Origin: Opitutaceae bacterium
GTDB lineage: Bacteria; Verrucomicrobiota; Verrucomicrobiia; Opitutales; Opitutaceae
DNA length: 10,759 nucleotides
Direction of reading: 5' to 3'
Assembly: GCA_031272375.1 (NCBI GenBank)
Contig: JAISTY010000102.1
Location: 1-10,759 of the forward strand
This document shows positions 7,075 through 10,396 of this stretch, piece after piece. Every line of letters begins with the position of its first letter. Positions within the stretch are counted from its first letter, which is position 1. The position numbers and the translations under genes were made by a program. A model generated the notes under the pieces. That model was given only the letters and a program-made list of their open reading frames with translations, made no database searches and was not told the origin of the DNA.

Positions 7075-9150
7075 TCAGTCCGCCGCGCCCGCCTCCGCCC
7101 GCAGGGACGGCGCCATTTTTTCCCGCAGCAGGGGGAGGATTTTGCGGCGGACGGCGTCACGGGTCAGGTGGCCGCGCCCGTCGTTGCACAGGGGAATGCC
7201 GTTCTCAATCATCCCGTAGCGCGTCCCGTCCGGCGAAAGGAAGGCGCCGGCGAGGTCAATGAAGCGCGCGGGGACGTCCGCCCGCTCCGCGACTTCGTAA
7301 ATCGCCCCGTTCAGGCGGCGGTGCGTCGCGTGGTCGCGTTCGGGCGCGGGGGCGTTGAAGAAAAGCGACAGCTTCGCCGCGTGGTGGATGTCGAAGTCCG
7401 GCCCGCCGGGGAGATTGCCCCAAGGGACGTCGAGCAGCACCCAGACCTTGCGGCCACCCCGCGCGAGCCGCCGCAGGGTGTCCGTCAGCGCGGCGGTGAA
7501 AACGGCGTCGCCGGCTTTTTCGGCGTAAGTCTGCCAGGCCGCCGCCAGGACGACGTGGCGGATGTTTTCCCGCTCAACGTATCCCATCACTTCCGCGGCC
7601 CAGCGCGGGGTTTGCCCGTCCAGCCCGTGCATCCCGGAGAACGCGAAGCCGGCCATCGGAGGGGTGTTGGCGTGCGTCGCGAATTTTCCGCCGACGCCCG
7701 CCTCGCGGCACAATGCGTCCATCGCGGCGATCAGGCACATCGCGTGGCTGTCGCCCCAGAGCAGCAGCCGGGGTTTCGCGCCCGGAACGCCGATGTCCGG
7801 CAGGCGCCCCCGCGCGGCGTCCTCCGGGTAAAACTCCCGTGTCGCCGCGGTGTAGTCGGTGTCCGCCGTCGCCTTTTGGATTTCGGCGAGCTTCCCCAGC
7901 ACGGGCGCCGGCCAGCGCCGCGCAAACCCGTTGGTTCCCGCCAGGAGCGCGCCCGACAGGACGACAACGCCCACCGCCGCCGCCGCCGCCGCGAAAAGCC
8001 CCCGGCGCGAGCGGACAAGCCGCCGCCGGCGGAACGGCGTCTCCACGAATCGCCACGACAGCGCCGACAACGCCGCGGCCAGCGCGAGCAGCGCCGCCGT
8101 GCGCGGGGGCGTCGCGGCGCCGTTCCGGTAGCCGTCGAACACCAGCACCGGCCAGTGCCAGAGGTAGAGCGAGTAGGAGACCAGACCGATGGCGACCGCC
8201 GGGCGCGACGACAACAGGCGCCCCGCCGAGGTCGGCGCGGGCGCGCCGGGACAAGCCGCCGCGCGGCCATTGCCCCAGATGAACAGCGCCGCGCCCAGCA
8301 CCGGCGGCACGGCGGCCAGACCGGGAAATGGCGTTTGCTCCGAGTAAAACCCGACGGACGCCACCACCGCGGCCAGCCCGCCCCACGCCGCGATTTCACG
8401 CCAAAGCCGCCCGCGCGCGGAACAAGTTGCCGGCAGCGCCGCCAGCAACGCGCCGGCGAGCAGCTCCCACGCCCGCGTCGGCGGCAGGAAGAAGGCGGCG
8501 ACGTCGCCCTTGCCGGCCACGTTCACCGCCGCGCACGCCGCCGACAAGCTGCCGCCCGCGGCGAGCGCCAGGAGGAGCGAAAGCGCCCGCGGCGTCCGCG
8601 TCCGCGCGAAGGCAAACAGCCCCGCCAGCAGGGGCGGGAAAAGCAGGTAGAACTGCTCCTCGACCGCGAGCGACCACGTGTGAAGCAGCGGGCGCGACTC
8701 GACCAGCCCCAGCGCCCAGTAGCCGTGGATGTCGGCCTTCCAGAAGAAAAAGTTGGCGGACAACAAGGCCTGCGCGACGGCGGACTTGCCGAGCCGCGCG
8801 CAGTCGGGGGGCGCGAGCAGCAGCGCGCCGGCGGCGAGCGTCGCGAGAACCATGACCGTCAACGCCGGCCAGATCCGCCGGAGCCGGCGCTCCCAGAAAC
8901 CGGCGAGCGAAAACGTCCCCGCCGCCAGCTCCTTCAGGACGAGCGAGGTGATGAGGAAGCCGGAGATGACAAAGAAGACATCCACGCCGACGAACCCGCC
9001 CGGGAAGCCGCCTATCTTCGCGTGGTAAAAAACGACGGACAGAACGGCGACGGCCCGCAGCCCGTCAATTTCCGGACGATAAACCAACGGCGCGAATCCG
9101 CCGGACGCGGAATTTTCAGCGGGGGGGGGGGGTAATTTATTGTTGTTCAT
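7075..9150 (-). CDS. OafA/YrhL-type O-acyltransferase with C-terminal SGNH domain; C12 tract at the 5' end
   Basis: The 691-residue inner-membrane protein probably transfers acyl groups, usually acetyl, to a surface polysaccharide. The Acyl_transf_3 domain (about 23-370) opens with YRPEIDGLRAVAVL...FYH, giving the R32-x10-H43 motif. GFVGVDVFFVISGFLI (52-67) and WERRLRRIWPAL (86-97) follow, then about ten membrane helices including SYSLYLWHWPVLVF. After a further hydrophobic segment (FAAAAAAVGVVVLSGALLAG) comes an extracytoplasmic SGNH domain: LLLWGDSHA with nucleophile S468, and near the C-terminus NDGRGHLT with D657 and H661. That spacing is one residue longer than the common DxxHL. This is the full two-domain architecture of OafA-like enzymes. 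The start MNNNKL at ATG 9150 has no Shine-Dalgarno and is followed immediately by 12 C residues encoding PPPP. The unstructured lead-in (1-22) is not part of the domain, so a downstream start such as the TTG in PLVYRP is possible. Confidence 0.94.
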   Translation of the reverse strand: MNNNKLPPPPAENSASGGFAPLVYRPEIDGLRAVAVLSVVFYHAKIGGFPGGFVGVDVFFVISGFLITSLVLKELAAGTFSLAGFWERRLRRIWPALTVMVLATLAAGALLLAPPDCARLGKSAVAQALLSANFFFWKADIHGYWALGLVESRPLLHTWSLAVEEQFYLLFPPLLAGLFAFARTRTPRALSLLLALAAGGSLSAACAAVNVAGKGDVAAFFLPPTRAWELLAGALLAALPATCSARGRLWREIAAWGGLAAVVASVGFYSEQTPFPGLAAVPPVLGAALFIWGNGRAAACPGAPAPTSAGRLLSSRPAVAIGLVSYSLYLWHWPVLVFDGYRNGAATPPRTAALLALAAALSALSWRFVETPFRRRRLVRSRRGLFAAAAAAVGVVVLSGALLAGTNGFARRWPAPVLGKLAEIQKATADTDYTAATREFYPEDAARGRLPDIGVPGAKPRLLLWGDSHAMCLIAAMDALCREAGVGGKFATHANTPPMAGFAFSGMHGLDGQTPRWAAEVMGYVERENIRHVVLAAAWQTYAEKAGDAVFTAALTDTLRRLARGGRKVWVLLDVPWGNLPGGPDFDIHHAAKLSLFFNAPAPERDHATHRRLNGAIYEVAERADVPARFIDLAGAFLSPDGTRYGMIENGIPLCNDGRGHLTRDAVRRKILPLLREKMAPSLRAEAGAAD
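9121..9132 (-). repeat. Homopolymeric C12 tract inside the acyltransferase start region (possible phase-variation switch)
   Basis: Twelve consecutive G on the plus strand are twelve C in the coding strand, forming codons 7-10 (Pro-Pro-Pro-Pro). Tracts of this length are prone to slipped-strand changes. Gain or loss of one or two bases would shift the frame right after the start codon, and changes of three would restore it. It is the longest homopolymer in the window. Confidence 0.75.
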
Positions 9151-9436
9151 AGAGTTATGAAATGATGACACCGCACTCCGCAACAGAGACGCCGTGTGAC
9201 GCGGGACGCTGTGTTGGACGGGAGCGGGTCGGACGGGAACGCATGGTGGCGGAAGGGGCGCATAAGGCGTCAACCCCAACGCGCCCCGTCAACAAGGCAT
9301 TTCACGCGACACCCGCACGCCACACACGCGGCACCCGCGCCGGTATTTCGCGCGGCGCGTTTCGGCGGACACGTTTCCCGGCGGGCGTGTTTTCCGCGTT
9401 TCCTTTCGCCGCGGCTGTGCGAGAAACGCCGGAAAA
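9151..9436. other. Divergent intergenic region between the acyltransferase and the secreted-protein gene
   Basis: These 286 bases must hold the promoters of both divergent genes. An 8-base direct repeat, GGACGGGA, occurs at 9216-9223 and 9231-9238. On the minus strand TTGCGG followed 17 bases later by TCATAA ends only five bases before the acyltransferase ATG, which would give a nearly leaderless transcript; the match is too weak to call. No other structure is evident. Confidence 0.35.
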
Positions 9437-10396
9437 ATGTCACGCGCCATTCCCGTTCCCGTCAGCCGCGTCCTGCGCCGCCAGTTTCTCCCCGCCGTCC
9501 TCGCGGGGTTGTCCGCCGGCTTCCTTTGCGCCGAACGCCCGACGCCCCTCGCGAACCTCACCCTCGCCACCCCCGACAACCTGCCGCCGCCCGCGCCCGT
9601 CATCCCCCCCGCCCTGCCCTCCGCGCCGCCGCAAACGGTCAGGAGCGTCACCATTCTCGAGGCGCCCGAAACGCCGCTTCCCGCCGGCAACGCGGTTCCC
9701 CGCCCGCCGGACGCGAAGCCAAGGGAGCCGGCGCCGCCCGCCGCCTATTACACCGAGGCCTGGAGCCACTCCCCCGCCTGCGCCACCGCCGCCGACTACC
9801 GCGTCCTCGCCGGCGACGGCGCCTCCTTTGTCAGCGCCGAACTCGAATACCTCTTTCTCTACTTTCTCGACCGCGACGGGGCCGACCGCGTTTTCATCCA
9901 CGTCCCGCTCTACGTCCCCGATTACGAGGACACGCCCCTTGCCGCCGCGATCGCCACCGGCATCCGTTTCGAGCACGCCGGGCGGACGCTGGAACCCGTC
10001 TGGGCGGAGCCGCTCGACCCACTTGGAAAATTCCATCCGGTTCCCGAAAACTTCCGCCTCGTCGCGCTCACCTTCGCCATCCCGCGGGCCGCGCTCCTGG
10101 AAAAATTCAAGGTGCGCGTCAGCTACATCCAGCATCATTTCCGCTACAACAACGCCAGCGTCGCCGCCCTTTTCCCGCGCCTCCCGTTCCTTGAGAAATA
10201 CCGGCAGAAGCTCGCCCTCGACCGCCGCAAATTCACCGTCCTTTTCGAGGTTCCCCCCGGAAGCGCGCTCGCGCTGCGGCGCATCACCCCGAACACCGCG
10301 CCGCTTGGGGACGCGCCGGACAAAATCCTCGTCCGGCTGGCCGACGACGAACCCGTCGCCGTCGAGGTGTTCCCGCGCGGGCCGTCCCCCCGGTAG
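9437..10396 (+). CDS. Unrecognised secreted protein with proline-rich linker
   Basis: I do not recognise a family for this 319-residue product. It begins with a likely signal peptide: a basic region to R15, then FLPAVLAGLSAGFLCA, with cleavage near residue 32. The sequence before C31 (GFL) is not a good lipobox. Residues 34-102 are rich in proline and alanine (for example LPPPAPVIPPALPSAPP), a flexible or wall/envelope-spanning linker. From about 103 to 312 it looks folded and rich in beta-prone stretches: SAELEYLFLYFLDRDGADRV (133-152), FRLVALTFAIPRAAL (206-220), KVRVSYIQHHFRY (225-237) and RKFTVLFEVPPG (264-275). ATG 9437 follows GGAAAA, a weak ribosome site. It is divergent from the acyltransferase gene across 286 bases and could be an envelope protein. 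It converges with the partial gene at the window edge. Confidence 0.7.
   Translation: MSRAIPVPVSRVLRRQFLPAVLAGLSAGFLCAERPTPLANLTLATPDNLPPPAPVIPPALPSAPPQTVRSVTILEAPETPLPAGNAVPRPPDAKPREPAPPAAYYTEAWSHSPACATAADYRVLAGDGASFVSAELEYLFLYFLDRDGADRVFIHVPLYVPDYEDTPLAAAIATGIRFEHAGRTLEPVWAEPLDPLGKFHPVPENFRLVALTFAIPRAALLEKFKVRVSYIQHHFRYNNASVAALFPRLPFLEKYRQKLALDRRKFTVLFEVPPGSALALRRITPNTAPLGDAPDKILVRLADDEPVAVEVFPRGPSPR

Follow-up and report, generated by a model that had tools for sequence, protein, structure and literature searches.

A C12 tract near the 5′ end of an AT3-SGNH O-acyltransferase frame from an uncultured, probably Opitutaceae bacterium: a candidate slippage switch

The window, that is, the whole stretch of 10,759 nt analyzed here (contig C160 of a metagenome bin), contains a run of twelve C at the 5′ end of an intact O-acyltransferase gene, and our analyses suggest, with a probability slightly above one half (about 0.55), that this run is a slippage on/off switch of the gene. 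The C12 would be a hypermutable homopolymer, in which slipped-strand mispairing at replication would lead to the gain or loss of C. A tract of twelve C keeps the frame open and would give the 691-aa enzyme (on), whereas one or two C more or fewer would leave a short product of only 10 to 46 residues (off). The change would be reversible, and cells would differ in the acylation of some surface glycan. Phase variation through this tract is credible, if unproven, and would be a known kind of switch.

The C12 tract lies near the 5′ end of an intact AT3-SGNH acyltransferase frame

The tract reads GGGGGGGGGGGG (twelve G) at 9121–9132 on the forward strand, corresponding to C12 on the minus strand, and a word search retrieved five overlapping C8 words from this position, exclusively on the minus strand. 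The original prediction placed the tract directly after MNNNKL in an acyltransferase frame, within a lead-in that precedes the conserved domain. Both points were borne out: in the minus-strand ORF 9150–7075, bases 9150–9133 read ATG AAC AAC AAT AAA TTA (MNNNKL) and are followed by four CCC codons at 9132–9121, and the acyltransferase domain starts only at residue 26. The numbering of these prolines as codons 7–10 assumes that translation starts at the ATG at 9150.

Table 1. Features of the acyltransferase gene and its upstream region in the window
Feature	Position	Strand	Basis
C12 homopolymer (G12 on the + strand); codons 7–10 if the start is ATG 9150	9121..9132	-	sequence
Gene for a 691-aa AT3-SGNH O-acyltransferase (predicted), intact frame	7075..9150	-	ORF list, Pfam scan
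Acyltransferase-3 domain PF01757, residues 26–364	8059..9075	-	Pfam scan
SGNH domain PF19040, residues 452–668	7147..7797	-	Pfam scan
Intergenic stretch common to the divergent ORF; presumed acyltransferase promoter	9151..9436		ORF list
ATG, proposed start upstream of the tract, AT-rich context	9148..9150	-	sequence, AT content
In-frame TTG, where P0001 (670 aa) starts as predicted in the database	9085..9087	-	database prediction
TGA closing the +1-slip frame after 11 residues; the TTG follows 29 nt further on	9116..9118	-	sequence, frame computation

The deduced product matched Acyl_transf_3 (PF01757) with 104.4 bits (cut-off 31) and, in a fused C-terminal part, the SGNH family PF19040 with 106.6 bits (cut-off 27). 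It also contains GDSH, which we take to act as part of the SGNH domain. By both Pfam domains the product is predicted to be an intact AT3-SGNH protein, in agreement with its proposed nature as a surface-type acyltransferase, and its deduced sequence places it among the OafA/OafB/PglI-type acyltransferases, with nothing missing before or after the tract. A Pfam scan of four neighboring genes identified a peptide deformylase and a cobalamin adenosyltransferase, with no match for the other two, and none of the four gave a hint of the substrate, presumably a surface glycan. The divergent 319-aa ORF (9437–10396, + strand) had no match in Pfam or NCBIfam; by eye, its product is proline-rich and possibly secreted.

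Sequence context and a relative favor a start upstream of the tract, the database prediction one downstream

The protein predicted in the database from the same contig, P0001, starts downstream of the tract. If this TTG start at 9087 is right, the tract is part of the mRNA 5′ leader and the proposed switch fails, because slips would at most tune translation or transcription, leaving the protein unchanged. Besides the database prediction, this start has in its favor that it leaves a 6-residue leader ahead of IDGLR and that leaders of seven residues or fewer occur in 4 of 119 homologs listed (from the best 120 of 7994), with P0001 counted among these four; against it, 42 of these 119 homologs have leaders of at least 20 residues. 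Likewise, the ATG at 9150 is in frame, and the AT content over 41 nt is 0.71 around it, versus 0.415 around the TTG and a mean of 0.39 for 104 called starts. Additionally, the relative G005 reads NIDNSGNPVLPLVYRPEIDG and shares PLVYRPEIDG with the window, the Leu codon that is TTG in the window being CTT in G005; since CTT cannot be a start codon, the start in G005 should lie further upstream, as read by hand from a copy that is itself in two pieces. Shine-Dalgarno-like words were of no help in the choice of start, because just 17 of 104 called genes are preceded by one. The context and the relative G005 favor ATG 9150 as the putative start and the database prediction favors the TTG; we consider a start at TTG 9087 quite unlikely.

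Slips of one or two nucleotides shift the frame ahead of the domain

From the computed frames, the addition of one C leads to a peptide of 11 residues and the loss of one C to 45 residues; changes of two C result in 10 or 46 residues, and changes of three keep the frame. The C12 is then a long homopolymer placed so that any slip of one or two nucleotides shifts the frame (10 to 46 residues). The original prediction of a clean off state stands as far as the short peptides are concerned, but not as to its cleanness: the frame resulting from a +1 slip stops 29 nt before the in-frame TTG at 9087, so that re-initiation is possible and the off state would not necessarily be clean.

The tract exceeds chance expectation

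Runs of C or G of at least 12 appeared in only 12 of 3000 windows simulated with an order-2 Markov model of the window, and the tract is beyond chance expectation. Codon usage was evaluated with 41,064 codons from called genes of the window and of sampled contigs, in which CCC represents 50% of the proline codons. Among 38 runs of at least three proline codons in the sampled genes, the acyltransferase tract alone was pure CCC, and none of the other 37 contained three consecutive CCC (P ~0.003 under independent codons); this test is indicative only, because the sample left out most of the tract-bearing contigs and called genes elsewhere in the genome hold C9 or longer. The leaders of the homologs contain 13% proline, and PPP was present in none of the 119 that were measurable among the best 120 of 7994 homologs; therefore, a proline-rich leader does not by itself explain the tract.

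Long C/G leader tracts are rare among the scored relatives of the gene

The best homolog besides P0001, among the best 120 of 7994, is around 50% identical. We scored on both strands 120 distinct relatives, none of them a close ortholog and with no congener among the genomes compared; 22 further loci lacked the motif with a long frame and were dropped, including G005 and a second AT3 gene that exists in the genome of the window. A C/G run of at least 7 in the 150 nt preceding the motif was found in two of the 120 relatives, C7 in L079 and G9 in L258, leaving L258 as the only one with a long C/G leader tract (relatives at best ~50% identical). L258 is an AT3-type gene from a genome of the same class (G335), with 35% identity and the G9 located 84 nt before the IDG motif. 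The ATG upstream of its G9 is in another frame; however, a TTG could be its start, and an ATG in frame is likewise missing from 20 of the 120 relatives, so this frame evidence is weak. The genome containing L258 shares genus g80 with nine others among those compared.

A start-proximal poly-C extending across the family was considered and dropped: ATGA-N-C9 occurs in 123 of 252 family genomes and ATGA-N-G9 is as common (155 of 252). ATGA-N-C9 exceeded its reversed control in many genomes, with the opposite in some (e.g., G077, G146, and G008). The genome with most matches among the 252 was G141, with 227 for ATGA-C9 and 571 for ATGA-G9, counting overlaps.

Long C/G tracts are dense in the genome and enriched near gene starts

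The bin that includes the window (1.46 Mb in 242 contigs, 67.6% complete) contains 47 tracts of at least 9 nt (pattern DC9), or ~32 per Mb with contig-end tracts included, which is the highest density among 57 genomes compared, the next having ~20 per Mb. It also contains a gene for MutS, albeit cut by a contig end, and there is thus no sign of a general loss of repair.

Many of the tracts at contig ends look like assembly or dark-cycle artifacts: 26 of 49 listed tracts are within 100 nt of a contig end and some are in low-complexity sequence. In a bin this fragmented, the C12 or its exact length might likewise be a sequencing or assembly error, an explanation that we regard as very unlikely, since the C12 is 1627 nt away from the contig end, is flanked by long stretches of open frame in both directions, and has a number of C that preserves this frame. 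Because of the suspect contig-end tracts, the position statistics were restricted to the 23 internal tracts, which are separated from any contig end by 100 nt or more.

These counts bear on whether the lineage simply accumulates long C/G homopolymers, in which case the C12 would mutate and be merely tolerated in a dispensable leader, with no selection for switching. The total number of tracts of at least 9 agrees with this possibility, as it shows no excess over a first-order model (47 observed versus 48 expected). Tracts of at least 12, however, were in excess (23 observed, eight of them at least 100 nt from a contig end, versus 1.4 expected); the model overstates runs of 6 threefold. The positions of the internal tracts also argue against neutrality. 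Eight of the 23 are within −100 to +40 of a called start, versus 2.2 by random placement (P 0.001) and 12.9% for runs of 5–6 bases (P 0.006), and 11 of 23 are within −130 to +90, versus 3.35 expected (P 0.0002); a narrow interval of −30 to +40 was not enriched (3 of 23 internal tracts, P 0.13). Additionally, as a raw count, 5 of 18 scanned proteins encoded by tract-linked or neighboring genes scored above cut-off against families of glycosyltransferases or of small-molecule-type methyltransferases (RsmH excluded). In favor of neutral accumulation, 14 of the 23 internal tracts are intergenic by our gene calls, an ATG at up to 30 nt upstream of a C-run was no commoner than in controls (9 of 33 tracts versus 7, 9, and 14 of 33), and such tracts are nearly absent from the 120 relatives of the gene that were scored. 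Pointing in the same direction is an in-frame G12 (L199:10246–10257) in a likely housekeeping gene, ftsL-like and located between rsmH and a penicillin-binding-protein (transpeptidase) gene, the label coming from its place and look. The gene would be an odd place for a hypermutable tract, and the presence of a tract there means that selection for switching is not established. Overall, we consider neutral accumulation rather unlikely.

The gene calls came from our own simple caller, which favors ATG and missed the ftsL-like gene. Background contigs were taken at roughly even steps, except for C38, C61, and C132, which were picked for their tracts; C38 and C61 are near a step and were left out of the first-order model, and C170, which carries a tract, was passed over at its step, so that the lack of runs of at least 8 in the background sample is partly by construction. 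Three contigs reading N still counted in the length for the first-order model. Gene calls, start context, and the codon and leader statistics derive from the background sample plus C61, C132, and the window.

Other tracts suggest further candidate switches

One gene is split in L173 (G000:C214), where a G11 at 1534–1544 separates a sugar C-methyltransferase gene into two frames. Positions 1–24 of PF08421 match upstream of the tract (E 0.0015) and positions 35–62 downstream in another frame (E 9.5e-6); neither match reaches the family cut-off, but PF08484 and PF13489, after the tract, exceed theirs. From this arrangement, the G11 is a candidate switch in the off state, with the split within the putative zinc-binding domain.

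A possible case of length heterogeneity involves the flank CCCCCCTCCCACGGTTGCGTT, of which the genome has just two copies, one following C13 where C132 ends (L199:17483–17495) and the other following C16 or more where C58 begins (L179:1–16). The two ends most likely represent a single locus whose tract differs in length between cells or between library molecules, and this heterogeneity says nothing direct about 9121–9132. By eye, the tract is upstream of a gene resembling an AraC-type regulator. The RsmH encoded in C132 is 80% identical to P0122, encoded on a contig of 6779 bases from a different source, so that public data include a nearer relative of the organism. Among the best 120 hits of this RsmH, ten carry an organism name, and all ten are assigned to Opitutaceae, Opitutus or Verrucomicrobia, making Opitutaceae the likely lineage.

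In-frame tracts are also found in L178 (G000:C237), with a C9 at 58–66, 10 nt from a GTG, in a GT2 glycosyltransferase gene and a G11 at 1395–1405 in the adjoining methyltransferase gene, as well as in a methyltransferase gene with G12 (L170) and a GT2 gene with G15 (L191). In four other loci (L168:737–745, L169:40–57, L193:699–708, and L137:1502–1510) an ATG precedes a C tract, with a long ORF in another frame; their products have the look of a signal peptide (L168), GDPD/GLUG (L169), a membrane-like aspect (L193), or similarity to PMT_2 below cut-off (L137). These four are leads only, because an ATG before a tract is no commoner than in controls.

Two further loci have an unusual organization. 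A C26 (L171:2646–2671, G000:C209) lies near the point where a gltB-like gene (GATase_2) breaks off, which could be a break in the frame or else a chimera joined at the poly-C. L166 (G000:C164) contains a G12 at 373–384 and a G11 at 488–498, both followed by AGGCAATTTTA and similar letters; a GH106 rhamnosidase gene starts 10 nt after the second tract.

Together, these tracts might form a genome-wide repertoire of long poly-G/C switches that this GC-rich lineage keeps in genes for glycans and the cell surface, comparable to those of Campylobacter or Neisseria, a tentative proposal whose reality we consider doubtful. Its proposed members would be the AT3 acyltransferase C12 (on), the GT2 C9 (on), and the sugar C-methyltransferase G11 (off), with a possible mannosyltransferase-like gene and secreted and membrane proteins as further leads. 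Even so, the wider tract set of this genome is a more interesting lead than the acyltransferase tract alone.

Comparison with known systems

If the C12 does act as a slippage switch, surface-glycan acylation would vary from cell to cell in an uncultured verrucomicrobial bacterium, as by the meningococcal PglI route, with whatever benefit this might presumably bring, and its poly-G/C-rich genome would be a place to examine slippage-based switching in Verrucomicrobiota. As described in PMC2831843, poly-C/G is generally under-represented in coding genes and is not closer to their 5′ ends.

In the literature considered here, the reports for the phylum come from Akkermansia. Slippage phase variation was suggested, from sequence, for the A. 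muciniphila acyltransferase Amuc_2098, which has a (C)10 (PMC3048395), and the switching shown there is that of the capsule, by inversion of a DNA element beside the capsule locus cps1, which includes Amuc_2098 and for which slippage is mentioned as possible (PMC13343947). The literature searched thus suggests slippage switching in Verrucomicrobiota and yielded no demonstration of it, which does not establish its absence in print. Amuc_2098, whose host is probably of the same phylum as our organism, resembles the window gene in being an acyltransferase gene with a poly-C tract and in its gene length (2049 bp, from coordinates given in PMC13343947); it differs in that its repeats are placed "at the end" of the gene by the same source and that the switching is by inversion, the two genes being likened by description only.

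L258 shares with the window gene its AT3 type and a long C/G tract near the 5′ end, but has G instead of C, low identity, and a possible TTG start. In Haemophilus influenzae, oafA is described as a phase-variable AT3 O-acetyltransferase that acylates a surface glycan (PMC9558356), which is the activity that we would expect here; the difference is that a reference in that paper names, in its title, genes with tetranucleotide repeats rather than a homopolymer.

The original prediction invoked known switching of O-acetyltransferase genes by poly-tracts, and for the AT3-SGNH architecture a published precedent exists in PglI of N. meningitidis, an AT3-SGNH protein (PMC9558356) and the O-acetyltransferase of the pilin glycan. 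Its expression is reported as phase variable (PMC11130364; PMC5445459), and PMC5445459 includes PglI among phase-varying genes and mentions homopolymeric tracts of at least 7 for pilin glycosylation. PglI thus has the same architecture as the product of the window gene, with the difference that its variation is documented in isolates, and in another phylum, whereas the window gene is known from sequence alone.
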